This document shows positions 40,205 to 60,201 of a stretch of 64,000 bases of DNA, in pieces. The position numbers were made by a program, and so were the translations under genes. Source of the stretch: Methylacidiphilum caldifontis (GTDB lineage: Bacteria; Verrucomicrobiota; Verrucomicrobiia; Methylacidiphilales; Methylacidiphilaceae); assembly GCF_017310505.1 (NCBI RefSeq), contig NZ_CP065957.1, positions 496,001 to 560,000 of the forward strand, written 5' to 3'. The notes under the pieces were generated by a model. The model saw only the letters and a list, made by a program, of their open reading frames with translations. It was not told where the DNA came from and did not search any database. Position 1 is the stretch's first letter, and each line of letters starts with the position of its first letter.

Positions 40205-41070
40205 CTGAACTTCAAAACTTTGAGATATAAATGTTGAAGCAGAACTTCATAACATTTTTGTTCTGTCTACAGGGCCCACTTTATGGATGATCGAACAGCG
40301 GAAGCAGATCGAGTTTTTGAAGCAACGGGTTGAGCGCTGTAGGGATCCGGGATAAAAGCCAAGTTACAGGCTTTCCCTTGGTATAGAGTTGGACCAAGCG
40401 GATTGATTGCAAGCGGCGGAGCACTTTGGGAACTTCTTCGGTAAAACCCTTCTCTACCCATTCTGCTCCCAGCCGTGCACTAATCCAAAAGGCCAAGAAA
40501 CAGAGTCTTATGTGGTTACGAACCCGGTCCGGCCGCCAGTGATAGACCGGACGGATTTTCAAAGTGTCCTCTTTGCTTCTTCCCGCAAGGCAAACTGGGA
40601 TGAGGGAAAAACGTAGATCATCGCCTTCAAAAGTTTCCGTTTTCGTTCCGATTTGACTCCGCCAAGAGCTTGATCCAAACCGAATCGTTGCCAAGCTTGC
40701 TCGAGGACTGCCAAGCCCCCGTAATCCAAAGCATCCGGGGCTTCCCACTCCTCCAAGGGAACAAGCTTCTTCCCCTACAAGATTGCCCTGACCGCATCCC
40801 GGACTTCTTCGGGCATCCGAGTTAGATTGGCTAAAATCCTCGTCTTGACCTGTTTGCCCACTCGGTAGGACTCCCGGACGAGATAGGACCGATAGATCTT
40901 GCCTTTCTGGTAGGTACGAACCTCCTGCAAGTACATGCCTACAGTATGTCAAAAGACAATAAAATAATCAATAAAAAATAATTCACATTTATTCACATAT
41001 TACGACCTACATTGTTGGCCCTAAGTGCTTTGTCTGCCTAAATTCTGCTCAAAATTATAAGGAAGATCGG
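40205..41070 (-). mobile_element. IS1634-like insertion sequence, copy 2 (internally deleted)
   Basis: The left end (CTGAACTTCA) and right end (CCGATCTTCC read inward) match copy 1, and flanking non-coding ends are conserved. The transposase has lost about 950 bp: after the N-terminal VLEQAWQRFGLDQALGGVKS region the sequence jumps to MEIRPVYHW-like residues and the C-terminus FWISARLGAEWVEKGFTEEV, ending LLPLFDHP. There is also a nonsense codon (TAG replacing the Gln codon of ILQGKK) at about 40778. It is therefore dead, but could act with copy 1 as a recombination partner. Confidence 0.82.
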
Positions 41071-41597: not shown

Positions 41598-42494
41598 TCA
41601 TTCGGTAAAATAATCAGAGTCAATTTTTTTAATCTCGTATGCAGAAACAGGCAATACTCCTACATTGTAATCAATCATCAAATGGGCAAGTTTTTCGCCA
41701 TCAATAAGAATAATTTTTAGATCGATATGCGAAGCGTACTCTTCTGCTTCTTTCGAAAAGGAAGATGTCGTAATAAATATCCCCTTTTTTGCTCTCTGTC
41801 CATGCAAAGCTCCAGCAAACTTTTGAATTTCGGGTCTACCTACCATACCATTCCATCGTTTTGCCTGTATGTAGATAACATCAAGCCCAAGCTTGTCTTC
41901 CTTAATTATTCCATCGATGCCCTCATCACCGCTGCGTCCCAATGCACTGCCTGCGTCTTGCCGCGAGCCACCATATCCCATTTTCACGAGCAAATCGATA
42001 ACAAGTCGTTCAAAAAAAACTGGTGAACATGATTTGACGGTCTGGAGTAGCTCATCTGCAAGATTTTGTCTAACTTTCTGGTAAGCAGCCTCAAGAGCTT
42101 CTGTGGGGGTTTCTGATATAGGCTCGCTGGATTGATCTTTAGCAGGCTTCCGATGCGAGCGAAATTCAACGAATTCCGGATACTGACTTAAAAAGGATAT
42201 GTCTATTTTAGGAGGATTTTTCTCAAGAGCATCGAGTCCTCTCTGCGTAATGCGAAAGTAGCCGCGGCGAGGAGAATCAAGAAGGCCAGCTTTGGTCATA
42301 TATGTGCGAGCCCAACTAACGCGATTATCGAATATCGGTTGAGTTCCACTTGGAAGCAGCTGTTTCTTTTCGGCTTCGGTTAGTCCAAATTCCGACGACA
42401 ACATTTCAATCGCTTCTCGAATTGTATGTTCTTGACGATCACCAGCAAAACGCAGCAAAGGAAGAAATACCGAAAGAAAATCTGGGATAGGCAT
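41598..42494 (-). CDS. mrr: Mrr-type restriction endonuclease
   Basis: The 298-residue protein has the two Mrr domains. The N-terminal winged-helix part (ISQ-like LLPSGTQPIFDNRVSWARTY, then RRGYFRITQRGLDALEKNP) recognises DNA. The C-terminal PD-(D/E)xK-type nuclease contains SPVFFERLVIDLLVKMGYGG, GRSGDEGIDGIIKEDKLGLD and VIYIQAKRW, giving the catalytic Asp and Q-x-K residues. Mrr enzymes cut DNA carrying foreign methylation. The gene is intact, unlike the neighbouring type III system, and is separated from it by the IS remnant. No cognate methylase lies beside it, as expected for Mrr. Confidence 0.9.
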   Translation of the reverse strand: MPIPDFLSVFLPLLRFAGDRQEHTIREAIEMLSSEFGLTEAEKKQLLPSGTQPIFDNRVSWARTYMTKAGLLDSPRRGYFRITQRGLDALEKNPPKIDISFLSQYPEFVEFRSHRKPAKDQSSEPISETPTEALEAAYQKVRQNLADELLQTVKSCSPVFFERLVIDLLVKMGYGGSRQDAGSALGRSGDEGIDGIIKEDKLGLDVIYIQAKRWNGMVGRPEIQKFAGALHGQRAKKGIFITTSSFSKEAEEYASHIDLKIILIDGEKLAHLMIDYNVGVLPVSAYEIKKIDSDYFTE

Positions 42495-42829
42495 AATCGT
42501 TGTTAGGCACTCAGCCCTTGATAGTAGAATTGAAAAAGGATTTGGTATTCGTGATTGCGAAAGCTTACATAAAGTAAAGCTAGATGGAAAGTGCTTACCA
42601 AACCAAATATGACTTGTAAATCGATGGACTTAGGGGAATCGATCAGATAAAAACTCTCGCTTTTCAACCGAATCATCATGTCAATCAAAGTTTATAATTG
42701 CAATACGCATACAATATATCAAATCCAATTTTATAAGACAGTTTATTTCATAAAATAAAAACAAAAATGTTTATTCAAACTCTGATAAGGAGCTTGTTAG
42801 CAACTCCTTCCAAAAGTCTTAAACCCATC
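42495..42829. other. AT-rich gap upstream of mrr
   Basis: Nothing identifiable. It should contain the mrr promoter (minus strand) and the end region of the TPR gene. A 61-codon minus-strand frame here lacks any conserved feature. Confidence 0.35.
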
Positions 42830-43762
42830 TTAGCATAAAAGAAAACTCTCATTGATACCAAAATTATATCGCTTGTATATGCTTCCTCTTTTACTATTCT
42901 GAGCAGGCAGCACTCTTTTACAATGCACACCTAAAAGATAAGGAGTAATAGGAGCTTTCCAAAACGCAGGCAATTCTTTTACTGGACGGGTAACAGGTGG
43001 ATTTTTCGGTGGAATTGATTTGTGGGGTGGACTCTTGGGTTTGCGTTTTTCCACTTTGGAACGCTGAGGGGTTGAAGGAAAAGGACTCATAGCCGGAAGG
43101 GATGGATCAAGACGATGGGCTTCTTCATCGATCTTTTTTGCTTGTCGTTCGTCTCCTTCTTCCCGATAGACAAGAGCATTATTGAGCAGGAAAACCGCCA
43201 AGAGCCGTTTATGCTGCTCAATGACTTTGCCTGCTCCGCGTCCTGCCTGAATATATGCCAATCCGGTATTAAAGACAGCGTCAGTTTGTGCTTGGCTCAA
43301 CAAAGCCTTCTGAATGCTGATAGCACGGGAAAGCATCTTATGCGCCTCGGCAAACTTCTTTTCTAAAGAGAGAACAACACCAAGATTGTTGTACGAAACC
43401 GCAATACGGAAAGAGAAACCAAGCATCGATGCGTTACGTTGAAAGTTTCTAGTCGGTTCCACATCACTTGCCGCTTGTAGAGAAGTAGCTAGTCTTAATT
43501 CCTGGTGGGCAACTCGTTCTGCTTCTGGAATCCGGTGAGCAGTAATGTATTCCGCAACTCTCTTTCCTTCTCCGGAAGGGCCAAAGACAATCTGAGGTAC
43601 GGAAAGAAAAAAAGCTTCAGGATGTTTGGGCTGCCGCGCAATCAAAGAAAAAATAGTTCCCATGAGGAGTAAAAGTCCCAAGCCAAGGGAGAGGAGAAAT
43701 TTCCTCGATGAATCCAATCCGAAAATTGACGAGCAAATACGTCGCGTTGTGGATGATAACAT
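42830..43762 (-). CDS. Membrane-anchored TPR protein (paralogue of the one at 47642)
   Basis: The 310-residue protein has an N-terminal hydrophobic anchor (KFLLSLGLGLLLLMGTIFSL, residues about 22-41) and then a domain VPQIVFGPSGEGKRVAEYIT, IPEAERVAHQELRLATSLQA. A TPR unit follows: SYNNLGVVLSLEKKFAEAHK, MLSRAISIQKALLSQAQ, then AYIQAGRGAGKVIEQHKRLL and FLLNNALVYREEGDERQAKK. These segments match the smaller TPR protein at 47642-48247 line by line. The C-terminal 90 residues are Pro/Lys-rich and unique. It is divergent from the receptor gene at 44761. Function is unknown; a periplasmic partner of the receptors is an inference from context. Confidence 0.7.
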   Translation of the reverse strand: MLSSTTRRICSSIFGLDSSRKFLLSLGLGLLLLMGTIFSLIARQPKHPEAFFLSVPQIVFGPSGEGKRVAEYITAHRIPEAERVAHQELRLATSLQAASDVEPTRNFQRNASMLGFSFRIAVSYNNLGVVLSLEKKFAEAHKMLSRAISIQKALLSQAQTDAVFNTGLAYIQAGRGAGKVIEQHKRLLAVFLLNNALVYREEGDERQAKKIDEEAHRLDPSLPAMSPFPSTPQRSKVEKRKPKSPPHKSIPPKNPPVTRPVKELPAFWKAPITPYLLGVHCKRVLPAQNSKRGSIYKRYNFGINESFLLC

Positions 43763-44057
43763 GTTGTTTGCCAGAATCGAATCGGGTGGGTGCTCTTCTT
43801 TGTAACCTTACCACAAATGTTATCCATCCCGCAAATTGCCATTTAGCCATGCGCAATGCCAATAGGTAACTCCGAATTTTATCAAGTCTTCGAACTTTTT
43901 GATCTGCAGAAGACCATATAGCTTCAGTTCAAGGATACTCCCATGCTGTTATTTCCTGTAAAACTAACTGTCCCTTTCCTTTCCATTCGTTTTTTCTATG
44001 GGAGTCCCTCCCCATTCTTATCCACGTGGCAAGCATAGACAATAAGTTGATTTTCTG
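43763..44057. other. Gap upstream of the TPR gene
   Basis: No gene is supported. Open frames on the minus strand (up to 43862) run through the TPR gene start in other frames and have no family features. Confidence 0.35.
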
Positions 44058-44190
44058 TCAAAGGATCATTGCCTTTGAAAATCTTTTCATCAGTTCCATA
44101 TCGACCCCTACGAGAGCTTGAGTTAAACCTAATTGTCGCCAAGCATTCTCTAGCACTTCCAACCTTCGTAACCTAAAACCACTTATCGTT
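44058..44190 (-). pseudogene. Remnant of an IS1634-like transposase N-terminal region
   Basis: The minus strand reads RLRRLEVLENAWRQLGLTQA, then LVGVDMELMKRFSKAMIL and a stop. This is clearly related to GGLAVLEQAWQRFGLDQALG and the LLKAMIYGRIL segment of the transposase in copy 1, but much diverged. It is an old, separate IS trace within the receptor locus, left of the conserved promoter region. Confidence 0.55.
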
Positions 44191-44439
44191 CGAGCCATCC
44201 TACAGAGACAAAGGATATTTTATAAAGCCGCTTCCAAGGTTTCTGGCTCCTTATTCGGGATTTGGATAATGTTGCCAGATAGACCCTCTCACCGAAAGGA
44301 TGGACTATTTCTCTGGAAGATACATTTTAGAGTTTTTGAAATTCTACTTGTCCTTTGCTAGTAGATGATTGTCCACACAATTAACATCACCATATCCATT
44401 CAAAAATCAAAAGGCTAACTCATTTTAAATGTATATATA

Positions 44440-44760
44440 TTAACCTATTTCTACCCTATACATTAGTGATATAGTGTTACGACAAGTAACTGTCACACAT
44501 GTCGTTACACATTTGTAACAGAGACACGAAATTCTCTTAGGATCCTAAAACTAGATCGCCACTTATTTTTCACGCAATTGTTACAACGCAATCTTCACAC
44601 CTTTTGGTAAATTGCCCGCAGCTCATTGTGAAGAGCAAAGTGCGTGGATAGGTAGGGAGAATAAGCACTAATCGATGTTGTTCGCTATCCCCACTCGTAA
44701 TGAGACAGCATAAAAAGCGAACTTATACCAACCAGTTCTATGAAATATGCAAGGAGTCCT
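44440..44760 (+). promoter_or_regulatory. Promoter/leader module A of the receptor gene
   Basis: This region is homologous, base by base over much of its length, to the inverted region 51331-51660 upstream of the second receptor. It contains GTTAC-GACAA-GTAAC (44476-44490) and GTTACA-CATT-TGTAAC (44504-44519), both perfect inverted repeats of the same half-site, and a further GTTACAA at 44580-44586. The second repeat lies 241 nt before the start codon, implying a long leader. The ribosome site AAGGAG is conserved in both copies and sets the start at the second of two in-frame ATGs. A repressor or activator binding GTTAC/GTAAC is inferred. Confidence 0.65.
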
Positions 44761-47628
44761 ATGGAATACACAAAACCAATCTTTTCGTTGAGTTTACAAA
44801 AGAATAGGCGAGATCCAATTATCAGATGGATCTTCTTATCGATTCTTTTCATCAACATTGTTCCTGCCGTTCAAGCGGGAGATTCCACGTTGGGTCCTGC
44901 TTCCATGTTAACAGGAGAAGAAAACACTTCTTCGCTCCAGAGCATGTCAGGAGACCCTGCAAGTTGGGATCAGCCTCCGCAGGGAACGGAAAGCACAGGA
45001 AATGGTCCTCAAGATGTTTTCGGGGGAAGCACGTCTTACCAACCACTTTCAAACCTGCTCCGGAATCATCCACTTCTGGCTGATGCTTCCTCTTCTTCAA
45101 CGGCAAACTCATCCACGACCTCTTCTTCTTCCAGCCCTTCTTTAAGTTCGTCTGAATCGGGTAGAGTCACAATGCCTGAAACAATTGTATCGACCAGTAA
45201 CGAATCGGTTTTGCCAGGCGATTATGATATTAACTCTGTATATGGAATACCGCTTAACGTCGTTGACACCCCGCGAAGCGTCCAGATCGTTACTCAAAAG
45301 GAAATTCAAGCTTCGGCGTTCATATCGCAAAATGTGATGTCTCTTATGTACATGGCTCCTGGCCTTTACATGGGTACCACCTTTGGCGAATTTTCGGTTC
45401 CAAATATCCGAGGCATGCCAGCTAATAAATACATCAACGGAATGCTTTCTTTCCTTCCAGGAACTGGCTACGAAGGCGGACCAATGAACATGAACGATTT
45501 TGACCAGATCAACATCGTTCAAGGACCAACCATGCCAAGTTTACTTTCCATTCGTGCAGCAGGTGGTTATCTTGACATCCAAACCAAACGACCTTACTGG
45601 GACGGTTTCCATGGCTACGCAACTGTCATGGAAGGAATGTACGATCAGAATCTCTGGCAAGCTGATGTCGGTGGTCCCATTAACGACAAGCTTGCCTTCC
45701 GTTTCAGCTACCTAGGCAATTATTCTGGAAACTATTACTACAATGATTACCTGCACAACCAAGCCTTTTATCTCGCACTCTCCTACAAGCCCTATGACAA
45801 CTACGAATTATTCTTTAACAATTCTTTTTATACGGAAGGTTACAATGAAATAGGAGGTATCAACCGACCAACCCAACTATTAATTTCCGATCATGAATAC
45901 CTTTCTGCATTTATACCGAACACCTTTGTAGGTCCACCAGTTTTCGTCAACGGCCATAAAGTAAACTACAATATAGGACCTGAATTGTACAATTACGGGG
46001 TTTCCGTCATGCCTAAGTACTACAACACGATTCATTTCGTGCCCTTATCGGCAATCGGTGGGTACCGCGCCAACCTCTTGAATCCTGGATCTGGCGGTTA
46101 CGTCGAAAGTGAACGAGCACAGGTTATCCAAAGGGTTAATGTCAATGAGGGTTTCCAAATTGTCAATAATAGTAACTTTGAATATTTTTCATACAACTAC
46201 CAGAACTTCACTCCTTATAACATCTACACTCCAGGCTCTTTTGTGGGACAGAACAATACTTCTTTTATTTTTAACTTCGAAACTCCAATCGGCGAAGGAA
46301 GCAAAGCGGAGGAAACAGAAACAAAAAGTTTACAGGATTCAAAGAATGCTCCCCTGAAAGAAGAGCCATTCCCAATTCACCACACCGTCAACGTTGGATT
46401 CGAGTTCGATTATGCCAACATGATCGTCTACGAGGGAGACTTCGAACAGACATTCAATCCGTGGAACATGGGTCCGCTTTATGATGCGGTCTATCCTTCC
46501 TATTTTCAATATAACTTACCTGGTACACCTTGGTTCAGTAAGTATCTTTATCAAGATGTGCCTATTCCTGGCCGTCCTGGCCAAGTATTCAATCCAGGTA
46601 ACTTCAGCTCGACTGATTCTGAAACTTGGTATCTGCGTCCCTACTGGCAACACCAGATCGATTTCGGTAAACACTTCTCAATCTTTATGGGCGCAAGCGT
46701 CCTAGGCCTCATGGGTACTGCAAAGAACCCACCCGGAACCCCTGCCACTTATTACGACTTTGGGGAAGCTCTTCATCCTTTTGGAAACTACTTTTCTACT
46801 GTCATTCCAAACTTCGACTTCAGCCCACGTTGGAAACCAAACGAATGGACAACAGTTTACTTCGATTTTCAACAGGCTTACTTAGCTGAAACAGGGGCCT
46901 TTTACGGATTATCTCCCTTAACAAGCAACTATGATCTTCACTTGCATCAACGTCTTTACAGTGGAGGAATAAATTTTAGCCTGCTCAACGGCAAACTCAA
47001 CATATTGACAGCAGCCTTTGATCAAGAGTTTCAGGAATTAGAATCTTTTAAGAAAGTGCTTCTTGTCCCTGTTCCGATCGACGTAGTAGGAGGCACTATG
47101 CAGGTCTCCTATCAACCCGATCGTCATCTCTGGCTCGTTGCTAATGCATCATATATCATTGGTACCTTTAATTATGGACCTCCACTCAAAACGGGGCCTA
47201 GCATGGACCAGCCCTATTCGAGCATCCTCGTTGCCCAGAATCCGGCGAAATATCCTTTTGATCTGTTCGGCTATTTTCCCCAGGGAACGTATCCCTACGT
47301 GGGTTGGCCAAACTTCCAGACTTCATTCATGGCAACCTATACATTCGATTTCGGTTTGGGGCTTTTCGCCTCGTTCAACGCAACCAGTCCACAGTATATC
47401 GCTTACGATTATATCACGCGTATTCCATGGCAGTATACGCTCAATTTAGGTCTTAGCTATACGAGTCCTGACAAACATTGGGTGGCAAGACTTTGGATCT
47501 GGAACGTAACCGATCAACACAACTGGATGACAAGTGGTAGTGGCTTTGCAACTTCTTTCAACAACTATGACGAGATCATGGTTTCGTGGCCATTCTGGAT
47601 CCAAGGTCAGGTCGTTTACCAATTCTGA
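44761..47628 (+). CDS. TonB-dependent outer-membrane receptor 1
   Basis: The 955-residue protein has a signal peptide ending near VPAVQA, an N-terminal extension of about 100 residues (SGDPASWDQPPQ, NHPLLADASSS, then a Ser-rich linker), a TonB-box-like ETIVST, a plug (YGIPLNVVDTPRSVQIVTQK, IRGMPANKYINGML, INIVQGPTMPSLLSIRAAGG) and a beta-barrel ending in Phe. The start at 44761 is chosen because AAGGAG lies 4 nt before it; an ATG 21 nt upstream has no such site. The plug and barrel resemble receptor 3 (56195), not receptor 2, whereas the promoter and N-terminus match receptor 2. The ligand is unknown; the FhuA/siderophore-like plug order makes metal-chelate uptake plausible. The TPR gene follows after 13 nt. 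Confidence 0.9.
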   Translation: MEYTKPIFSLSLQKNRRDPIIRWIFLSILFINIVPAVQAGDSTLGPASMLTGEENTSSLQSMSGDPASWDQPPQGTESTGNGPQDVFGGSTSYQPLSNLLRNHPLLADASSSSTANSSTTSSSSSPSLSSSESGRVTMPETIVSTSNESVLPGDYDINSVYGIPLNVVDTPRSVQIVTQKEIQASAFISQNVMSLMYMAPGLYMGTTFGEFSVPNIRGMPANKYINGMLSFLPGTGYEGGPMNMNDFDQINIVQGPTMPSLLSIRAAGGYLDIQTKRPYWDGFHGYATVMEGMYDQNLWQADVGGPINDKLAFRFSYLGNYSGNYYYNDYLHNQAFYLALSYKPYDNYELFFNNSFYTEGYNEIGGINRPTQLLISDHEYLSAFIPNTFVGPPVFVNGHKVNYNIGPELYNYGVSVMPKYYNTIHFVPLSAIGGYRANLLNPGSGGYVESERAQVIQRVNVNEGFQIVNNSNFEYFSYNYQNFTPYNIYTPGSFVGQNNTSFIFNFETPIGEGSKAEETETKSLQDSKNAPLKEEPFPIHHTVNVGFEFDYANMIVYEGDFEQTFNPWNMGPLYDAVYPSYFQYNLPGTPWFSKYLYQDVPIPGRPGQVFNPGNFSSTDSETWYLRPYWQHQIDFGKHFSIFMGASVLGLMGTAKNPPGTPATYYDFGEALHPFGNYFSTVIPNFDFSPRWKPNEWTTVYFDFQQAYLAETGAFYGLSPLTSNYDLHLHQRLYSGGINFSLLNGKLNILTAAFDQEFQELESFKKVLLVPVPIDVVGGTMQVSYQPDRHLWLVANASYIIGTFNYGPPLKTGPSMDQPYSSILVAQNPAKYPFDLFGYFPQGTYPYVGWPNFQTSFMATYTFDFGLGLFASFNATSPQYIAYDYITRIPWQYTLNLGLSYTSPDKHWVARLWIWNVTDQHNWMTSGSGFATSFNNYDEIMVSWPFWIQGQVVYQF

Positions 47629-47641
47629 AAAAGGAATTTCT

Positions 47642-48247
47642 ATGACGAGAATAAGACGCGGGTTGCTTTTTACTTCACTGGTTCTTATAAATTGGTTTCT
47701 ATCTCCTTTTAGTCAATCATCGGTACATGCGACATCTAAGCAAGTAGCGCCAAAAGCGACAAAAGGGAGTACAATAATAGCTCCTCAGATTATTCTAGGT
47801 GCTAACGGCGAAGGAAAGAAAGCTCAAGAACTGCTCTTGGCTGGTCAAATCCCTGAAGCGCGTATCCAAGCTGAAAAAGATCTCCACGCTTCAATTGCAC
47901 ACTTGGGCTTTAGTTCCTTTGGGTTAATAGTCCCATATAATAATTTAGGCGTTGTGTATACTTTCGAAGGTAAATATGCTGATGCTCACAAAATGTTTTC
48001 TCGGGCAATCGGACTTGGGAAAGCTGCCCTGAGTCAAAGTCAGATGGCTGCTGGATATAGTTCAGGCTCTACCTATACTCAGGCAGGAGCTGGGGCAGGA
48101 AAAGGAGCAGCCATTCAAAAGAAACTTCTGGCTCTCTGCCTCTACAATAACAGCATCGCTTACCGAAAGGAAGGAGATCTATCTAAAGCAGAGCGCTTTC
48201 AATCCGACGCGCGTAAGCTTGATCCTACTCTACCTGAGTTGCAATAG
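47642..48247 (+). CDS. Exported small TPR protein in an operon with receptor 1
   Basis: From the ATG at 47642 (AAGGA ribosome site) the protein is 201 residues with a signal peptide ending near SSVHA. It then matches the TPR protein at 42830: IIAPQIILGANGEGKKAQEL, IPEARIQAEKDLHAS, PYNNLGVVYTFEGKYADAHK, MFSRAIGLGKAALSQSQ and TYTQAGAGAGKGAAIQKKLL. It follows receptor 1 by 13 nt and is surely co-transcribed. No known family name can be given beyond TPR. A periplasmic role with the receptor is likely but unproven. Confidence 0.75.
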   Translation: MTRIRRGLLFTSLVLINWFLSPFSQSSVHATSKQVAPKATKGSTIIAPQIILGANGEGKKAQELLLAGQIPEARIQAEKDLHASIAHLGFSSFGLIVPYNNLGVVYTFEGKYADAHKMFSRAIGLGKAALSQSQMAAGYSSGSTYTQAGAGAGKGAAIQKKLLALCLYNNSIAYRKEGDLSKAERFQSDARKLDPTLPELQ

Positions 48248-48606
48248 GAATCACTCTTCCTGTACAATCGAACACGCTGAAATTGTTCTTAATGTGACCC
48301 AGACTGAAGAAAAGGATCTTTTAGCAGTAGGAGGGTAGCTTGCGTTCTGGGCGGAACTGTGCCCTTCTGGATGATCCCGTTGTTGCAAGATGACTCGCCA
48401 AAGAAGTTATGGGAGTGATAGTTTTTTTCGATAGTGGACGATAATCCGATCGATCCCAATCGCAGAGGTAGTTGGAAGTACGGTATGAGCTACCCTTTTA
48501 AAAAAAGTGGAGGCAAGGTGCAGGATAAGAAGGTCGAGGAAAAAACGTGCTGGCCAGCCTTTTGATCTGGTATTTATCTTGGTTCATTAAAAGGTATTTG
48601 ATCAAG
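48248..48606. other. Convergent gap between the TPR gene and receptor 2
   Basis: Both flanking genes end here. No clear terminator hairpin with U-tract was recognised and no further gene is supported. Confidence 0.35.
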
Positions 48607-51330
48607 CTAGAAACTTGCTCCGATACTTCCGTAGATTGTAAAGGGAGCTCCTGGATAGCCGAGTAGATAACCTGCTTGGTAAGCGATGGGGACATTAGGG
48701 TTGCCAGCGGTCCCGTAATAACCACCGCTGGTGATAAACTCATAGCCGTTGTAGCGTAGGTCGGTGATGTTCATTAGCGTTAAGTTGAAGTTGAACAATC
48801 GCTCTCGATCGAGGAACCGCAACGGGACTGATGCGTTAATTGAAGCGTTCAAAGTGTAGTACTGGGGCATTGTTGTACGGCTGGGTGCCCCCGTTTGGTT
48901 GTTGAAGACATATTGGTCGCCGTTGAAGAGAAACCAGCGGCTAAGGCGAAGGGAAACATTGCCGAACTGCTGAGTATGGAAAATGCCACCAGTAAGCATC
49001 AAACTGGGGACGTAGGGGACATGGCGACCATTGTAGACAACCTGTTGCGGTGTGCCAGGACTCACGACATAGCTTTTGTAGACTGCGTTCTCAACTGCGC
49101 CGTTCATGAATATGTGAAAGGTACCGAATGGGTTGTCGTCCAAAAAAAAGTCGGCTCCTTGGTAAATTGAAGTGCCAAGCCCAGTGATTGGTTGACCAAC
49201 GAAGTTGACCATGTTGATCGCCTGCTCGGCAAATCGAAGCCAGAAATAATTAGCGCCGAAAAGCATATTGTTGAGACCCGGCATATTTTCGAAATGAGTC
49301 TTGAAACCTCCGATTGCGTACTGCGCCAAGGAAAGACCATAGTAAGAGCTTGGAATCTTTTGAAAGAGACCCCCTCCCCCACCGACAGTATCAGTCTCAT
49401 AGGTTTCCGAATAGCTCCCGTAGAGGGCTAGCCAACGAGTAACCTCGTAGTTTAGAAGAATGGACGGCTCGACGCCGCTCAGATGACGGATAGCATTAGG
49501 TAGTTTTCCTTGATTATGGCTGGGATTGAATTGAAACGCTAAGGGGAAGTATTCCTGGGCATTCATCGAATAGGCTGTCCGGAAGACGTCGTAGCGGATA
49601 CTCGGAATAATCTGGAACGTCGTGATGGGTTGAACTGTATCCTGGAGATAGACAGCAATATCAGTCTGATCCCAGTAATTGTTTCTGTAGAAGTTGTTCG
49701 GAGTCAACTCCCCACCGGGAATATTTGTGCCTGGAAGGAAGTAGTTTGGATTATAGAATGCATTACGGCTGTTATATGTGGAGGAGATATAATAACCACC
49801 GATATCGACTGTGTTATAGGGAAGGACCCTGGTCAAGTCAACTAGGTCGCCGAAATCCCATTCGGAAGGGTTGTTGTACTCGAAAGCATTGGGAGCGTTT
49901 TGAAAAAAGTTGTAGTAACGGCTGTGGATACGCTGAGAGGCATTATAGAAAAGCATATTGTGGAGGGTCGTCTTCTTGTCTTCGTCAAGGTAGATGTTCT
50001 GCTTGGCATAAGCGATCTGGGTTGATTGCTTATCGAATTTGCGCCAGACGTCGTAGTTCAAGTTGCTGTAGAAGCCACTGGTCGCCTCGCTATAGGGAAT
50101 TCCTGGAATTGGGACTTGATTGGCATTCAGACCATTGATGGTAACGTAAGGATTGGCGTTGACCGGGAGGATGGTCGGACGGTAACCGCCCGCATTTGCA
50201 TACCAAGCTCCGAAGCTGATATCACCGGAATTAAAGTTCTTAATGGTCTTTCCATAAATTGCATACTGGTAGCTCGGACTGCGGAACCCATCCGGAGACA
50301 TTCGAAAGTTATTTCCATCGCCGACTCCACCAGAGATCACTGTCGACCAGCCGTTTATATTTCCAGTCCGGTAGTCAGCGGTCAAGAGCTTCTGACTGAA
50401 ACTGCCATAGACCATGTTGATGTCAGCGCCATAATGTTCGGTCGGCTGAATTGGGGTAAATTCGACCTGTCCTCCTACGTTGTCGTACCAGCGGCCGACA
50501 GCTGTACCCGGACCGTAGGTAACCGATGTACTCGAGATCATCATCATGATCGGCACTGATGGTGACTGCCAAAGACCTGTCGAAACATTGTTCATAGGCA
50601 CTCCGTCTAAGGTCATCATGATCGATGCTCCACCCGTGTATCCGCCAAAGCCACTCCACCCGTTGCCGATACCGTTGATCGAGACGGTATACTTCGTAGC
50701 ACCGGTGTTTCCGTACCCGTTAACGTTAACCCCTGGTGAGAACTGTAGAACTTGAGCTGCACCGGCAACTGGGCCAGCGCTCGCTGCGATGTTCTTATCG
50801 ATTACTCGGGTTGTCAGCCCAGACCGGAAAATCTGTTCCTGTGTGGGGGCTTGTGACGCTCCTTGTACTAGATCAGTAGGGGGCTCAAGCAGAGGATTGT
50901 TGACATCCGTCGAGACAGTGGTAGTGGGCATTTGGATAACTCCACCCTGATTGGTTGGTGCTGTTGTTTCACCCACATTTTCCGAGTTTGCCGTCGAAGA
51001 AGAAGCATCCGCCAGAAGCGGATGATTCTGAAGCATATCAGAAAGCGGTTGGTGTGTCGAGCTTCCCCCAAATACATCTTGAGGTCCGCTTACCGTGTTT
51101 TCCGTTTCTTGCGGAGGCTGATCCCAACTCGCAGGATCTCCAGACATGTTCCTAACTGTGGACGAATCTCCTTCTCCCGATAACGTGGGAGTTGAATTAA
51201 TCGAAGAATCCACTGCTTGAACAAGGGAAATCATACTTAAGAAAAGAATTGATAAGAAGAACCACCAAACTGGCCTATTTACTCTATTCTTTTGTGAACT
51301 CAATAAAACGATCGACTCTGCGTGTCCCAT
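48607..51330 (-). CDS. TonB-dependent outer-membrane receptor 2
   Basis: The 907-residue protein shares with receptor 1 the signal peptide (FFLSILFLSMISLVQA) and extension (MSGDPASWDQPPQETENT, NHPLLADASSSTANS), then diverges completely. A TonB-box-like TTTVST is followed by a plug with VLQFSPGVNVNGYGNTGATK, ISSTSVTYGPGTAVGRWYDN and a barrel ending GASIGASF-like with terminal Phe. The N-terminal start at 51330 is fixed by the conserved AAGGAG site; upstream ATGs lack one. Plug features (MMTLDGVPMNNVSTG) resemble receptors of the Fe-siderophore/cobalamin superfamily but not closely enough to name a ligand. Confidence 0.9.
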   Translation of the reverse strand: MGHAESIVLLSSQKNRVNRPVWWFFLSILFLSMISLVQAVDSSINSTPTLSGEGDSSTVRNMSGDPASWDQPPQETENTVSGPQDVFGGSSTHQPLSDMLQNHPLLADASSSTANSENVGETTAPTNQGGVIQMPTTTVSTDVNNPLLEPPTDLVQGASQAPTQEQIFRSGLTTRVIDKNIAASAGPVAGAAQVLQFSPGVNVNGYGNTGATKYTVSINGIGNGWSGFGGYTGGASIMMTLDGVPMNNVSTGLWQSPSVPIMMMISSTSVTYGPGTAVGRWYDNVGGQVEFTPIQPTEHYGADINMVYGSFSQKLLTADYRTGNINGWSTVISGGVGDGNNFRMSPDGFRSPSYQYAIYGKTIKNFNSGDISFGAWYANAGGYRPTILPVNANPYVTINGLNANQVPIPGIPYSEATSGFYSNLNYDVWRKFDKQSTQIAYAKQNIYLDEDKKTTLHNMLFYNASQRIHSRYYNFFQNAPNAFEYNNPSEWDFGDLVDLTRVLPYNTVDIGGYYISSTYNSRNAFYNPNYFLPGTNIPGGELTPNNFYRNNYWDQTDIAVYLQDTVQPITTFQIIPSIRYDVFRTAYSMNAQEYFPLAFQFNPSHNQGKLPNAIRHLSGVEPSILLNYEVTRWLALYGSYSETYETDTVGGGGGLFQKIPSSYYGLSLAQYAIGGFKTHFENMPGLNNMLFGANYFWLRFAEQAINMVNFVGQPITGLGTSIYQGADFFLDDNPFGTFHIFMNGAVENAVYKSYVVSPGTPQQVVYNGRHVPYVPSLMLTGGIFHTQQFGNVSLRLSRWFLFNGDQYVFNNQTGAPSRTTMPQYYTLNASINASVPLRFLDRERLFNFNLTLMNITDLRYNGYEFITSGGYYGTAGNPNVPIAYQAGYLLGYPGAPFTIYGSIGASF

Positions 51331-51660
51331 AGAACTCCTTGCATATTTCATAAAACTGGTTGGCACCGGTTAGCTTTTTACGTGGGTTCATTGGGAGGTG
51401 GGATAGTGGGCGATATTGCTCCTGGCTTATACTTACACGCCACATAAATACCCTACTCTTCGCTCCCAATCCTAAGTGACGGTCACTTTATCAAAGGATG
51501 CGAAGATTGCGTTGTAACAATTGCGTGAAAAATAAATGACAATCTAGTTTTTAGATCCTAAAAGAACTTGGTGTATCTGTTACAAATGTGTAACGACATG
51601 AATGACAATTACTTGTCGTAACAATATATAAATAACCTATTGCATATAAATAGGTAAGAA
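51331..51660 (-). promoter_or_regulatory. Promoter/leader module B of receptor 2
   Basis: On the minus strand this region mirrors module A. It holds the perfect inverted repeat GTTACA-N4-TGTAAC (51594-51579), a near-perfect second one (GTTAC-GACAA-GTAAT), the GTTACAA half-site and the conserved stretch TTTTTCACGCAATTGTTACA. Spacing from the main repeat to the start codon is 248 nt against 241 nt in module A. Further upstream a 7-bp inverted repeat ACCTATT/AATAGGT is present in this copy only. Conservation of non-coding DNA at this level indicates shared control or a recent copy event. Confidence 0.65.
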
Positions 51661-51904
51661 TGGTTCATTTGTCGTGAGTTTTTCTTTTAGTTTTTAAATG
51701 ATGATATGAATAGACAAAAATCTAGACAACATTGTAAAAAGACCTTAAAGATAACGCAAAAAACGGAAGGGATCTTTTCTAGAATCTTTTTTTCTCTGAG
51801 GAGGTTGACACAACCTCGACTGCCTTCACGGTAACGAACTGAATTTCTGAAAAGTAAGAGACACTACCCTTTTGTTGATAAAAGCCTAGGTAGTCTCTAT
51901 AGTA

Positions 51905-52249
51905 TTAAAAAGAGAGAACTGTCACACCTTCAGCGATGCGCTGCCGAATCTCGACGGCTCCTTTGACGAATCGTGCAGAAAGCATTTGATCTGGATCCAC
52001 ACCATAAGCTTCCAAGGAGACCTGGCAAGCGGCGATGTCCACCCCCATTTGCCGTAAATGGTCGAGGGCTTGCGCAATAATGGGGGTAGATTTCTGGTTC
52101 GAGCGTAGAATTTCGACACCCGGACCCAGCAAAAGAAGCTCAACCTTGGTTTCTGGCTGTTCAGCCATGATGCCCGTCATATGGAGAAGGGAATTCAGCC
52201 GCGGGAAAGCCTCCTTTCCCGTAGTCACTACGACAAGTAGCGCATGCAT
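51905..52249 (-). CDS. DsrE-family protein
   Basis: This 114-residue protein has the Rossmann-like DsrE fold signature: VVVTTGKEAFPRLNSLLHMT, VELLLLGPGVEILRSNQ, then HLRQMGVDIAACQVSLEAYG with the cysteine at the position used by sulfur-handling relatives. DsrE-like proteins move sulfur or bind small ligands at membranes. A good ribosome site (AAGGATT) precedes the ATG. It lies alone between receptor 2's promoter and a long gap, so no partner can be named. Confidence 0.8.
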   Translation of the reverse strand: MHALLVVVTTGKEAFPRLNSLLHMTGIMAEQPETKVELLLLGPGVEILRSNQKSTPIIAQALDHLRQMGVDIAACQVSLEAYGVDPDQMLSARFVKGAVEIRQRIAEGVTVLSF

Positions 52250-53026
52250 AATAATCCTTGCTAGAATGGTTCCTACTACATAAGTCCAACCAATGGGGCT
52301 GGACCACAGCGTCCTCCACTTGCGTTCCTTTGTCCTTTAGCATTGTTGTATATTCATTGTCAAATTATCTTTCTAGAACCAACCGTTGTTCACGGGACCC
52401 CTTTTTCCGCCTAAACCAAAATTCATTTTCTACAAAGATCAAAGTCAATCATGCTTTGTGGAGAACTCATTTTCACAAGATAGATATCAACATCTAGGCG
52501 TTTGGAGTTCGCATAATTACTTTTTAGAAAATCACCGTCCGTTGTTCATTAAAAGCACGTGCATTCATGGGATTGTTGCAAGCTGGGAACTGAGATAACT
52601 ACGCCTGAGATCTGCAAGCAATTCAATGGGCTTCACGTAGCGCCGATGAATGGCAATGTGGCAAGATTAAAGGGTAGCTTTTCTCCAATCTTGGATAACC
52701 AACGAATGCAATCGGGCTTAATTACTTAAAATTATGTGCAATAAATGACTCCATGAGCTGGATTATTTTTCAGGATGTAATCCTTACAATCAGAAGCCAA
52801 GCTGAGGTTAATGACTTGATCACTTCTTACTTTCCTTTGCAGTACAACATGATCAAGCTCAATCGCCACTTCTTTTTTGTCACTAGACCCTGCACATTTT
52901 TTCTCACAACCTCTTAACAATGTGATCTTAAATATCAATATTATGCTTTCTTAAGCTCTCTGATTATAAAGACCAGAAAAAATAAACTTTCTTCTTTAGA
53001 AACAAGAAATAAAAATAGATCATTTT
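52250..53026. other. Long gap with one doubtful small frame
   Basis: No firm gene was found in these 777 bp. A 68-codon minus-strand frame at 52732-52938 (KKEVAIELDHVVLQRKVRSD, then VINLSLASDCKDYILKNN) has a protein-like composition and may be a fragment of something, but I do not recognise it. Confidence 0.35.
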
Positions 53027-53683
53027 TCAAACTGCCTTGATTAGTTCTTCACCTTCTGCAGTCGCTTTGTTAACCGCTGAACTAACCCTATGTAGACTTA
53101 GGTCTCCCTGCCAAGGCCTAAGCAGTTCCAGATCCTTCTTTTCTTCTCCAGGTACTGGAGAAAGCCAACGGTCATAGTCAACCTGGTTCACAATGACCGG
53201 CATTCTATTATGAATCGGCCTTAGCTTTTCGCAAGCTTCCGTAACAATAATCGTAGCGGATTCTATGGTTTCACCAGGACCTTCCCAATGGTCCCAAAGC
53301 CCTGCAAAAGCAAATATCTCTTGACCAGGAATAGTAATATACCAAGGTTCTTTTTTGCCATTTAACATTTTCCATTCATAAAAGCCGTCTGTGGGAATAA
53401 GACATCTTCTTCGTTTAAAACTTTCTCGAAAAACGGGCTTGGTAGAAACGGTTTCAGCTCGTGCATTGATCAAGCTATAGCTGCTTTTCTTTTCCTTTGC
53501 CCAGTGAGTAATTAGTCCCCAGCGAAGCAGGTCAGCTTTGTTCTTTCCATCAGTTTTCCTTACAATCAGGATGGAGGTCGATGGAGCAATGTTGTAACGG
53601 GGTTGAATTTCAGGAAGTAGTTCTAGATTAAAAACCTGTTTTATGACTTTCGGTGGAGTATGAAGAGAAAATCGGCCGCACAT
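53027..53683 (-). CDS. SOS response-associated peptidase (HMCES/YedK family)
   Basis: The protein begins MCGRFSLHTPPKVIKQVFNL; the Cys at position 2 forms a covalent DNA-protein crosslink at abasic sites after Met removal. Other family residues are visible: PRYNIAPSTSI, INARAETVSTKPVFRESFKR, RRCLIPTDGFYEW and the HNRMPVIV motif with the catalytic His. Length is 218 residues, standard for YedK. It shields abasic sites in single-stranded DNA. The gene is alone with no operon partner. Confidence 0.95.
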   Translation of the reverse strand: MCGRFSLHTPPKVIKQVFNLELLPEIQPRYNIAPSTSILIVRKTDGKNKADLLRWGLITHWAKEKKSSYSLINARAETVSTKPVFRESFKRRRCLIPTDGFYEWKMLNGKKEPWYITIPGQEIFAFAGLWDHWEGPGETIESATIIVTEACEKLRPIHNRMPVIVNQVDYDRWLSPVPGEEKKDLELLRPWQGDLSLHRVSSAVNKATAEGEELIKAV

Positions 53684-53917
53684 AATGAGGTTATAGTTCT
53701 AAATAGCTTTAATAAATCTATTTTTCTATAGTCACTCTTCAAATAATCTCGAATAGTTCTTTATCATTTAATTTCTCATAAATGTTCCCATAAAAAATGA
53801 CATTTAATAGTAAAACTTCTAGATGCCCCAAAGACATATAAATAACCTGTGTTGTCTCCAGATGAACCTAACTAAAAAAGAACAAGTTATCCTGTTGGAT
53901 TAGACCATCTTTTTATC

Positions 53918-55516
53918 TCAATTTCCCAATACTTCAGAGATAAGGCGTGGCCCAAGTATGGCCGACGCTGCCAGCAAACCAGACATCATAACTCCTGCAA
54001 TACCTAGACCTGTACGACAACTGGCACCGCAAAGGAGAAGTCCATCAATCTCTGTCCTTGCTCCTGGGCGACCAAAAAGAAATTGTTTCGGTGTGGCTGC
54101 AATCCCATAGCCTGTTCCACCCGTTGACAGTGTATAGCGGCTATGCGTCAGTGGGCTTGCGAACTCTTTATAGACAATGTTCTCTGGTAAATTGGGAAAT
54201 GCACGCCGTGTGAGCTCGATGAGTCGTCTACCAAAGATTTCCTTGCGTTCCTTATAGAGAGTTTGATTTCGGTACCTATTGTTCTTTCCTTCTTCAGTCT
54301 GAACTGCCCATGCTTCAGGCTGGCTTGGAGCAACGGCTATAAGCTGCAGGTTATAAATCCCCTCTGGGGCAAGCCTTTTATTTGTTGGATCCTTAACAGA
54401 AGCAATTGAAACAAAAACTGTTGGAGCTTCTGGAAACTCTCCCCTAGCCACTTGTCGATATTGGAGTTCATGATCATAACTGGAATGGATCCAATAGTTG
54501 GTAGAGAAGTGATTTTGCTCGAAGACAGACTTACGTACACCCAGGTAGGCAACAAAAAGCGCAGGAGCCATTTCCCACTGGCGAACTCTTTGCAAGGATT
54601 TTGAAGGCATATTGTCTTCCCCTACCAGCTCCAAGAATGTCTGCTTAACATCGGCATTAGAAATGATATATTTACCCTCAACCTCTTGAACACCCAGATA
54701 GGGATTTCTAAACTGTACTCCAACGGCTTTTCCCTTTCGTACCAAGATCTTTAGGACCCGACTTCGAAGAAGTATCTTTCCCCCCGCTTCCCCGATTGCA
54801 GCTGCCAGTTTATCGGAGATGATTTGGCCACCACCTCTGGGGTAATAAGCCCCTTCCAAATAATGTTCAGCAATACCCGCCCCAATAAGCAGAGAAGCTC
54901 TACTCGGGGGAAGGGCGTAGTTAGCGTGTTGACCTGCAAGCACAGCTTGAAGAAGGAGATCAGAGGTACAACTTTGTAGAAACTCACCAAACGATCGGTT
55001 AGCCCAACGAAGAAGTTGTGGGGAGGAAAAAATATTCCAGAGGGTTTTCATGGGATTAGCCAATCCTCGGAGTAGCCGCTGCAATGAATAAAGAATAAGA
55101 CAATAGCGGTCAATTCCACCCCTTTGCTTAGGGAAACTTTCTATGAGTCGACTCCTAAAGACCTCTATACCTTTGGGAATGCGGAACGAAAACTCGGGGA
55201 AAAGAAGAGTATCGAAACCATTGGGATCCATCTCTTCAAAGACGATCGGCTCGGATCCCGCTGCACGCAAAATGGAGGGAATAAGGCCACCAGAATGACA
55301 GCCACCTAGATAGTGAAGTCCAATATCAAACTCGTATCCTGGACGCGAGAAGATCGTAGCATTTCCACCGGCAACTGTATGTTGATCAAGAACAAGGACT
55401 TTTTTCCCTCTGCGAGCTAGTAGGGCTGCAGCCGTTAACCCCCCGGTCCCAGCACCAATAACGATAGCATCGAATTTTGAATCTGGGAGAGTCCGGAAGC
55501 GGTCAGGAGTATTCAT
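53918..55516 (-). CDS. CrtI/retinol saturase-like FAD-dependent oxidoreductase
   Basis: The 532-residue protein has an N-terminal FAD-binding dinucleotide motif DAIVIGAGTGGLTAAALLAR, then LVLDQHTVAGGNATIFSRPG and FDIGLHYLGGCHSGG, and a C-terminal FAD segment LLCGASCRTGLGIAGVMMSG. The layout matches the family of phytoene desaturases, carotenoid isomerases and all-trans-retinol 13,14-reductases; the GLHYLGG segment favours the retinol saturase/CrtISO branch. A carotenoid-modifying role is inferred. No other carotenoid gene is adjacent. Confidence 0.82.
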   Translation of the reverse strand: MNTPDRFRTLPDSKFDAIVIGAGTGGLTAAALLARRGKKVLVLDQHTVAGGNATIFSRPGYEFDIGLHYLGGCHSGGLIPSILRAAGSEPIVFEEMDPNGFDTLLFPEFSFRIPKGIEVFRSRLIESFPKQRGGIDRYCLILYSLQRLLRGLANPMKTLWNIFSSPQLLRWANRSFGEFLQSCTSDLLLQAVLAGQHANYALPPSRASLLIGAGIAEHYLEGAYYPRGGGQIISDKLAAAIGEAGGKILLRSRVLKILVRKGKAVGVQFRNPYLGVQEVEGKYIISNADVKQTFLELVGEDNMPSKSLQRVRQWEMAPALFVAYLGVRKSVFEQNHFSTNYWIHSSYDHELQYRQVARGEFPEAPTVFVSIASVKDPTNKRLAPEGIYNLQLIAVAPSQPEAWAVQTEEGKNNRYRNQTLYKERKEIFGRRLIELTRRAFPNLPENIVYKEFASPLTHSRYTLSTGGTGYGIAATPKQFLFGRPGARTEIDGLLLCGASCRTGLGIAGVMMSGLLAASAILGPRLISEVLGN

Positions 55517-56194
55517 GTTGTATTGATATCTTGTATTAATGCCTACAGAAAAACCGAAGAACGATTTAAATCAAAGAAAGGGAAACTACAGTATCATAAA
55601 AATCAAGTAAGCTTATCACACATAACTCCTTGTAAAAAGGTGTTATTAAATTTGCTCATCAAAGAAACCCATTGAGATGGTTATAAAAATACAAAGTCTC
55701 AGTCCTACCCTTAAGCAAACAGGGTTATTTCTAGCCGCCTCTTACAGGCACTTTAGAGATAAAGAGACACTTGTTGCTACCGAGGAAATGCTTGTGCAAG
55801 GTTAAAGTTATAAAAAAGCAATTAGTTAAGGGACTTGGAGAAAGAAGGGTTGCTCAAGGCTTTTGTTTTTATCTTCCTACAATTTGCCATGTGCCATCGT
55901 AAGCAGCTTCAAGTTCCATTTCGTTTATCACCAAAACATTAAGTACCTTATCCCCCAAGTTCACAAAACGGGCTAACGAACTTTTGTCTTTCCGCTTTCT
56001 TTTTAAATTCAAAATCAAGCTATATGGAAATTTGAATAATTAGGACAAAAAAATGTTGTTCAATGCGTCGTTTAGTCTCTGTCTTGAAAGAATAGGACAA
56101 AAACGGGTCAAAATACAAGCAATTTACTGTTAGTCCTTTATTTCAATTATAGATATTTTCCTCCCAATATTATCAAAAATGAAGGCATAAAAGA
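55517..56194. other. Upstream region of receptor 3
   Basis: No gene found in 678 bp. The region must hold promoters for the divergent oxidoreductase and receptor 3. The GTTAC/GTAAC modules seen before receptors 1 and 2 are not present here. Confidence 0.4.
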
Positions 56195-58699: not shown

Positions 58700-59026
58700 T
58701 GTAATCATGTTATAGTTTTTGAGTTTTGATTTAAGAAGTATTGTTATAACCAGGCTATAGTTTGTAGTATCCGATTTATACTTCCCTAATAGTTGATTAA
58801 AGGAAGAATTTTAACGAAATGCTATATGAATATTAATAGAGGTCTTTTTATAGAGCCTAGTTCTTTATATAGTATTTAGTGCTTTAATTAATAAAATGAT
58901 CAAATTACATTAATAGGTGATTTCATAAAAAATGAATTTAGATGTTTTTGCATTATGGAAAGAATTTTTGTTTTTTTGATAAACATTAGTCATCTCTATA
59001 CTTGATACTGTCCTTTTTTAGACGAT
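58700..59026. other. AT-rich gap after receptor 3
   Basis: Very AT-rich; no gene and no hairpin with U-tract that I would call. It probably contains the promoter of the gene at 59027. Confidence 0.35.
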
Positions 59027-59857
59027 ATGATTTCCCGCGATATGGATGTACCGGTCACTCGAGTTCAGATTCCATATTCGAAGCTTCAAGCCCTACCAAA
59101 GGAAGAGCGTATAGCGTTCTTGCGCGTTGGCTGGCTATTCTCCGAAGTCAATTGGCTTAGGAAGCTATTGATGATTGTTGGAAATCAAAATCTCGGGCAA
59201 ACAGAAATGCCAGCCACTCACTGGCTTCGAACACTTCTTTTGACGACAATTTGTGGAAAAATGTATGAAGGTTGGAAGATAATCTCCAGTGATAAGAATT
59301 ATATCAGGAAAATAGTAGCGCACCTACTAAAGAGCGATGACAAATTCAAGAAGGAGCATGAAACATTAAATAGTGATTTAAAAAAAGGTTCTTTTATCGA
59401 AAAGATAAGACATAACATCGGCTTTCATTATCAGCTTAAGGATTTTGATCAATGGCCTCCACACGCTCAAGATGGTGACCAGTTACTCTCCGTTCTTTTT
59501 ACCGAATACGATGGCGACATGCTTCCCTCGTTGCCTGTGGTTCCTCTCTTCGAAACCGTAGCCCGATTACATCGATCTTCTAACAATCCCGAACCAAACA
59601 CTTATGAAGAATGGGAAAAGAGCCATTTGTCTTCATTAAACGAAGTAAGCAAGACCTCAAATTGCTACTGCGTTTACTTGCAAAAGATTTTCCTGACAAT
59701 GCTGAAAGAAATAGTTCAAGATGATTGCAATATATCATACGAGAAGGTCGAAAATCCTCCTGCATACAATGCTCAACAAATTTATTTTTTTATGACACCT
59801 CCATCCAATGAAACGTACGACCAACTTAAAAAAGAACTCAATCCTGATAAAGGATAA
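59027..59857 (+). CDS. Unrecognised protein with HEPN-like R-x5-H motif
   Basis: I cannot name the family of this 276-residue, mostly helical protein. Residues about 133-142 read IRHNIGFHY, an R-x5-H pattern like the RNase motif of HEPN domains, within a helical context (IEKIRHNIGFHYQLKDFDQW). The N-terminal part (LPKEERIAFLRVGWLFSEVN) also looks like helical HEPN-type toxins and Abi proteins. It is convergent with a very large DNA methyltransferase gene, in a part of the window rich in defence genes. Start is the first ATG of the frame; MDVPVTR a few codons later is possible. Confidence 0.6.
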   Translation: MISRDMDVPVTRVQIPYSKLQALPKEERIAFLRVGWLFSEVNWLRKLLMIVGNQNLGQTEMPATHWLRTLLLTTICGKMYEGWKIISSDKNYIRKIVAHLLKSDDKFKKEHETLNSDLKKGSFIEKIRHNIGFHYQLKDFDQWPPHAQDGDQLLSVLFTEYDGDMLPSLPVVPLFETVARLHRSSNNPEPNTYEEWEKSHLSSLNEVSKTSNCYCVYLQKIFLTMLKEIVQDDCNISYEKVENPPAYNAQQIYFFMTPPSNETYDQLKKELNPDKG

Positions 59858-60201
59858 CAAAACTTCTTCTACTATTCTGAATCGCAACTTATTGATACTA
59901 AACGCAATGGTTTTTTCTGCTTAAATAACCCACTTGAGTTGAACGAAGTTCGAAGAAAGTCTAGTTTCAAATCAGTGCCTTCAGTTTTACGATTCTGCAA
60001 GAAGATTGCGATTAAAAGTCTAACAATTATGGCAAGGTAACACATCCTGAACTCTAACAAGTAGACTGTGTATCGAAGTCTTCTATCTTGTCCTTGAAAT
60101 CCACATCAAAATGATGCCTGCTCCTTCCTCCACTTTTTTCTTCTATGAACTATCTATTGATAATTTTGACCATAAAAACAAAGAAAGCTAAGATCACTTA
60201 G
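59858..60201. other. Convergent gap before the methyltransferase gene
   Basis: No gene is supported. A 62-codon minus-strand frame (MCYLAIIVRLLIAIFLQN...) has a faint likeness to transposase C-termini and could be an old IS trace; this is too weak to call. Confidence 0.3.

Follow-up and report, generated by a model that had tools for sequence, protein, structure and literature searches.

Among the outer-membrane receptors of Methylacidiphilum caldifontis, R2 has probably had its own 5′ end replaced by a copy of that of its neighbor R1, a TonB-dependent receptor of a different subfamily; the copied segment comprises regulatory DNA, leader, signal peptide and an N-terminal extension. We consider probable the account that joins this replacement with shared operator-like repeats and a common periplasmic tail. 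It was derived from a stretch of 64,000 nucleotides (the window) and its comparison with related genomes, and the statements concerning the organism's own genome are based on searches and on individual stretches of that genome. The features discussed are collected in Table 1.

Table 1. Features of the R1/R2 region (positions are those of the window)
Feature	Position	Strand	Remark
5′ block, R1 copy	44391–45111	+	likely donor; regulatory DNA, leader, signal peptide, N-terminal extension; 74% identity to 51708–50983
5′ block, R2 copy	50983–51708	-	likely recipient; stands where the sister genus has an R2-type 5′ end
Conserved regulatory core upstream of R1	44480–44599	+	83–97% identical to R2 copy; flanks 49–70%
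Two GTNAC half-sites upstream of R1	44503–44520	+	11 bp apart (CGTTACACATTTGTAACA)
Two GTNAC half-sites upstream of R2	51578–51595	-	as upstream of R1
R1, TonB-dependent receptor	44740–47628	+	962 aa; orthologs in seven relatives
R1 start region and signal-peptide-like sequence	44740–44877	+	residues 1–46 in the longest reading; direct reading
AAGGAG, ribosome-site-like	44751–44756	+	ahead of second ATG (44761) of R1; R2 counterpart 51335–51340; direct reading
R1 N-terminal extension	44878–45111	+	motifs GDPASWD and HPLLA
R2, TonB-dependent receptor	48607–51351	-	914 aa; subfamily other than that of R1
R2 N-terminal extension	50983–51213	-	same motifs, R1 type
R3, receptor	56195–58699	+	body resembles that of R1 (30%); without extension and without repeats
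Exported TPR protein	47642–48247	+	directly 3′ of R1
Second TPR paralog	42830–43762	-	oriented divergently to R1; matches 139 residues of the other TPR protein with 47% identity

The shared 5′ block

Comparison by blastn of positions 44000–46500 with the reverse complement of 49000–52500 yields a single match, in which 539 of 733 positions are identical (E=3e-122) and which corresponds to the two copies of the block listed in Table 1. The identity amounts to 72% over 349 bp of noncoding and 74% over 369 bp of coding DNA and, at the protein level, to 61% over the first 123–124 residues. Past 45110 the identity of the next comparison window drops to 14%, the block ending abruptly at 45111/50983, in the linker that lies ahead of the TonB box. 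Used as a DNA query against the 2.25 Mb genome, the block is found in these two places and in no third copy. The premise of the sequence-only reading, namely that R1 and R2 have in common their upstream DNA, leader and first residues as a cassette joined to different receptor bodies, is therefore borne out by a likeness that extends beyond the signal peptide, ends sharply and is far from being a feature placed ahead of nearly every gene. Since the AAGGAG sits inside the conserved stretch, the sequence suggests that the true start of the two proteins is perhaps the second ATG (44761 and 51330, respectively).

Two distant receptor bodies

The plug domain PF07715 is recognized in R1 with a score over the cut-off (36.8 bits) and in R2 with 29.2 bits in the genome search and 23.7 bits, vs a cut-off of 23.9, with hmmscan; the barrel domain PF00593 is recognized in R2 (38 bits vs a cut-off of 27). 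R1 has no match to a Pfam barrel model, and aligns over its full length with other plug-bearing receptors and with R3, the latter over 844 columns, in agreement with the likeness originally noticed between these two. The TonB-box position is occupied by the putative boxes MPETIV and MPTTTV, conserved in the orthologs, and neither R1 nor R2 matches the STN domain. When aligned, the bodies of R1 and R2 are ~26% identical; judged from their sequences they are distant subfamilies of plug/barrel TonB receptors, so that the earlier statement that they are unrelated needs a small correction. No match for R1 or R2 was found in the PDB, in which relatives that might name the ligand had been sought, and an AlphaFold2 model of R2 built with four sequences (pLDDT 25) was unusable.

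R1 has orthologs, 82–89% identical, in every one of the four further genomes of the genus and in three genomes of the sister genus. Those of R2 occur in seven sister-genus genomes, some in fragmentary form (83–86% identity for the five nearly complete bodies), and in none of the four further genomes of the window's own genus; when ~85,000 species genomes were scanned with the body of R2, matches came from Methylacidiphilaceae only. It is solely in the genome of the window that R2 adjoins R1.

Origin of the R2 5′ end

The extensions of the two receptors fall into two types. Type A (VFGG...QPLxxLLRNHPLLADAS) is carried by R1 of the window and of three relatives (G002, G006 and G007), type B (VYG...SDLADIQPLLAANS) by R2 of the sister genus; the window's R2 carries type A. 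Indeed, the core of its extension is 74% identical to that of its own R1 and 36–43% to those of the R2 orthologs, the tree of this core (55 columns) places it as sister to the R1 of the window (support 99/97), and a topology in which all R2 extensions form one clade is rejected (AU p=0.00345). Along R2 the affinity flips within residues 121–150 from its own R1 (up to 73%) to the R2 orthologs (up to 100%). Thus, a tract with sharp ends has a phylogeny at variance with that of the remainder of the gene, as is expected of gene conversion or ectopic recombination, and both donor and recipient copies are retained in the genome, a situation that fits conversion and reciprocal exchange alike.

The dS of the copied pair of blocks is 0.78, compared with 2.2 for the R2 body and its G007 ortholog and with saturation for the R1 orthologs of other lineages, and for this reason the copying would have occurred after the lineages split. 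The replacement itself can be read from the sequence: a ~720-bp copy of the R1 5′ region would have taken the place of that of R2 in this lineage, most likely through ectopic recombination or gene conversion, with one junction ~350 bp ahead of the start codon and the other in the low-complexity linker between extension and TonB box, and each body would have kept its own TonB box, plug and barrel. The modular swapping of ligand specificity that had been envisaged is accordingly to be amended, the 5′ module being portable but the part exchanged being the 5′ end and not the body that confers specificity.

The same end product would result if it were the body that moved, a second copy of R1 located beside R1 having had its barrel overwritten by a sister-genus R2 body with the junction in the linker. 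The distribution of R2, absent from the rest of the genus, present in the sister genus and adjoining R1 here alone, is in keeping with this alternative, which we regard as unlikely though by no means negligible, considering that the R2 linker immediately ahead of the TonB box is still of the R2 type (ENVGETTAPTNQGG vs DLDETTTPVKRGG in G011) and that the dS of 2.2 between the R2 body and the sister genus is that of an old resident; neither of these two points is decisive. That the two 5′ ends became alike with no copying, by convergence or by selection on a shared sequence for regulation and export, is very improbable: although the flanks of the regulatory core are less conserved than the core itself and similar repeats are found ahead of R1, R2 and the receptors of a further subfamily (R4) in DNA that can no longer be aligned, this explanation is refuted by a colinear identity that includes unconstrained leader DNA and is at odds with the match of the synonymous sites. 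Plain duplication, with R2 derived from a copy of the entire R1 gene that diverged but stayed similar at its 5′ end, would explain why two neighbors have the same 5′ end but has next to no probability, being refuted by the distribution of orthologs (bodies ~26% identical to each other have orthologs of 82–89% in other genera) and by the sharp end of the similarity.

An old N-terminal extension and its candidate partner

The extension consists of ~75 Ser/Gly-rich residues in which two motifs, G[GD]PxSWD and [QH]PLLA, are conserved. Following the signal peptide, the order of its elements is a variable Ser/Gly/Pro-rich stretch, G[GD]PxSWD (once NWD), YG or FG (once LG), [QH]PLLA, a Ser-rich linker and finally MPxT at the TonB-box position. 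Wherever the N-terminus of an R1 or R2 ortholog is present, so is the extension, in both subfamilies and in two genera, and among 77 receptor N-termini its profile recognizes those of R1 and R2 only. Searches with the R1 extension in 60 related genomes and with the R2 extension plus plug in 388 genomes of the phylum gave convincing matches only within Methylacidiphilaceae; two further matches, in G058 and in G011:C156, were judged spurious from their translated frames. Because both subfamilies carry the extension in the relatives, its distribution indicates that it is ancestral to both receptors and predates the exchange; hence, the extension is shared by R1 and R2 as had been noted for the cassette, but is older than the event that gave R2 its present copy.

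Rich in S, T, G, P, N and Q and poor in hydrophobic and basic residues, and with a dN/dS of ~0.29 that is indicative of moderate purifying selection, the extension has the look of a disordered tail bearing short binding motifs. Such a tail may dock a common periplasmic partner, for which the exported TPR protein encoded after R1 is the first candidate; the R1–TPR pair is kept in all six relatives examined. The R4 receptors (L163, L164, L171, L173, L176, L177 and L180) have a different conserved extension, AKQSGWxGIVxQTEPE, so that a tail bearing a tryptophan motif seems to be present in each of the co-regulated subfamilies.

Operator-like repeats and probable shared control

Within the 5′ block the leader that follows the regulatory core is 49–67% identical between the two copies, and the core contains direct repeats of a GTNAC half-site. 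Repeats of the same kind are found upstream of R1 and R2 of the sister genus, though the surrounding DNA no longer aligns. At a fixed score they precede 17 of 20 receptors of the R1, R2 and R4 subfamilies and none of 56 other receptors, a difference (Fisher p=3e-14) whose significance is indicative only, motif and grouping having been chosen after a partial view of the data and orthologs not being independent. Furthermore, the three-copy pattern has 23 matches in 13 genomes, most of which precede R1, R2 or R4 receptors, as opposed to none for the reversed pattern. R1 of G001, G002 and G004 has no clear repeats, though those of relatives do.

That R1 and R2 are under one control, as surmised from their common upstream DNA, is very likely because the same 11-bp-spaced repeats precede the R1, R2 and R4 receptors of two genera and no other receptor subfamily. 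Since PhoB sites are built as direct repeats of 11 bp (PMC2648988), a regulator of the OmpR/PhoB family is the natural candidate for the factor recognizing them. By binding the repeats, a response regulator of this type would switch on R1, R2 and R4 together, probably at low phosphorus. A scan for sigma-70 promoters gave nothing over the level of shuffled sequence, and a riboswitch or otherwise structured leader was rejected on account of the lack of Rfam matches in 42000–60000 and of a folding z-score of 0.69.

The repeats also occur in other arrangements. Upstream of R2 of G009 (L083/L121) there are ~15 half-sites with an 11-bp period, nearly all in strict register, an array that by far exceeds the usual size of OmpR/PhoB-type sites (two to a few copies). 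In four genomes of the Methylacidiphilum type (L103, G000:C1:182299, minus strand; L086–L088) two or three copies are located between divergent genes, with a sigma-factor-like/ParB-like pair on one side and an exported membrane protein that matches no Pfam family on the other. Others lie near genes for small outer-membrane β-barrels (PF13505; L104, G000:C1:286812, and L082, G012:C8), which are possible members of the regulon. An ORF of the window read as a transposase remnant (40281–40952, minus strand) has similar counterparts near repeats in G011 (L080) and G009 (L100).

Phosphorus or metal?

There is roughly an even chance that the shared regulon serves phosphorus, probably organic, a reading suggested by the fact that in the relatives R1 and R2 often adjoin phosphatase genes. 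A PF04185 phosphoesterase comes after R2 in five genomes of the sister genus, with a PhoD phosphatase ahead of R2 as well in G009; in G006 and G007 R1 is followed by a TPR protein and then by a propeller/PF04185 protein, and in G002 it is located between PF04185 proteins. For the window itself the link is weak, because its genome has no PF04185 gene and no repeats were found in the family ahead of pstS or of PhoB-like genes. In fact, repeats are missing from the upstream regions of pstS in 13 genomes, from the vicinity of PhoB-like genes and from the upstream regions of the PF04185 genes themselves, and a canonical Pho regulon operating through sites at pstS and PhoB-like genes was dropped as a candidate. 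PhoB-like regulators are present, the best of the window's genome scoring 248.9 bits, below the curated cut-off of 296.2. Compared with the Pho box (CTGTCAT + 4), the repeats have the 11-bp period and a GT[AC]AC core, but this core is often GTAAC instead of GTCAT.

The possibility that the regulon serves instead a metal (copper, lanthanide or iron), the adjoining phosphatases being incidental, deserves to be taken seriously even if we lean against it. It has been proposed that these methanotrophs take up lanthanides through TonB receptors (PMC7907005), the missing repeats at pstS and PhoB-like genes would be in order, and R2 displays a match to a heme-receptor model, albeit a weak one (25.6 bits vs a cut-off of 317). 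On the other hand, R1 and R2 adjoin PF04185 or PhoD phosphatases repeatedly, the spacing of the repeats is that of the Pho box, and no metal gene was seen at the R1/R2 loci.

Further 5′ exchanges in relatives

The alignments indicate that the exchange between R1 and R2 is not a one-off, separate 5′ exchanges being present in G007 and G002. In G007 R1 and a neighboring R4 receptor (L180), which belongs to another subfamily, are 91.7% identical over 564 bp, up to the end of the signal peptide; in G002 the 5′ end of R1 is ~70% identical over ~400 bp to those of the two flanking PF04185 phosphoesterase genes. In addition, R1 of G001, G003 and G004 carries an R2-type extension (clade support 100/100), a result that holds at the protein level and stems from a short alignment. 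The other within-genome pairs of receptors align in the body and not upstream, with the exception of two R4 paralogs of G007 that are alike throughout.

Two peculiarities of these loci can be added. Upstream of R1 of G007 (L116 7695–8243) the promoter DNA, which contains three half-sites, is present as 2.7 copies of a 200-bp unit and is found also ahead of the neighboring R4 receptor. The R1 frame of G002 (L112 7583–10774) opens like the N-terminus (MKxxIExLExRYxM) of the flanking 1,200-residue PF04185 proteins, so that its start may be misannotated, or its 5′ end taken from elsewhere.

A bolder generalization, to which we assign a rather low probability, is that among the receptors of Methylacidiphilaceae the front end is interchangeable, one and the same combination of operator array, export signal and disordered docking tail being mounted on varied plug-barrel bodies: recombination in the linker would repeatedly re-pair front ends and bodies, while the tail would recruit a common periplasmic partner, perhaps the TPR protein.

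Relation to known systems and implications

Transducer-type TonB receptors such as FecA and FpvA have an N-terminal STN signalling domain between signal peptide and TonB box. R1 and R2 likewise have an extra periplasmic segment in this position, but theirs has no STN match, is Ser/Gly-rich and low in hydrophobic residues and bears two short motifs. Gene conversion is known between paralogous outer-membrane protein genes, and the R1/R2 tract resembles these cases in being copied between paralogs with sharp ends; unlike them, it concerns promoter, export signal and tail and not a surface-exposed part, so that its copying would change control and docking rather than surface identity.

As to regulation, Caulobacter crescentus has several PhoB-regulated TonB receptors and phosphatases, for which a function in the uptake of phosphorus-containing compounds has been proposed (PMC11208175). 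The resemblance lies in the presence of several TonB receptors and phosphatases, but there a single response regulator is known, whereas here regulator and signal are deduced; moreover, pstS is here without repeats, and the shared N-terminal extension and copied 5′ ends set the present receptors apart from the system as far as it is described in that source. In the Pus (phosphate utilisation) SusCD-like systems of Flavobacterium, TonB transporters induced by phosphate depletion are encoded beside phosphomono- and diesterases (PMC8115612); also here receptor genes adjoin phosphoesterase genes, but instead of SusC/SusD pairs R1 is found with a TPR protein and R2 with a phosphoesterase, no SusD having been noticed. 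In the part of the open-access literature that was searched, no prior report of the system described here was found.

What the exchange would have accomplished is to be viewed in the light of the age of its components: extension and operator class would have been present in both subfamilies beforehand, so that co-expression and a common tail would have been kept and not created. The case would nevertheless illustrate how a different outer-membrane receptor may be brought under an existing control and partner system by replacement of the front end alone, and it leads us to propose, for the acidophilic methanotrophs of the Verrucomicrobia, about whose nutrient uptake little is known, a compact regulon consisting of operator arrays and three receptor subfamilies. 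Should the front end prove interchangeable, a new uptake specificity would join an existing circuit in one step.
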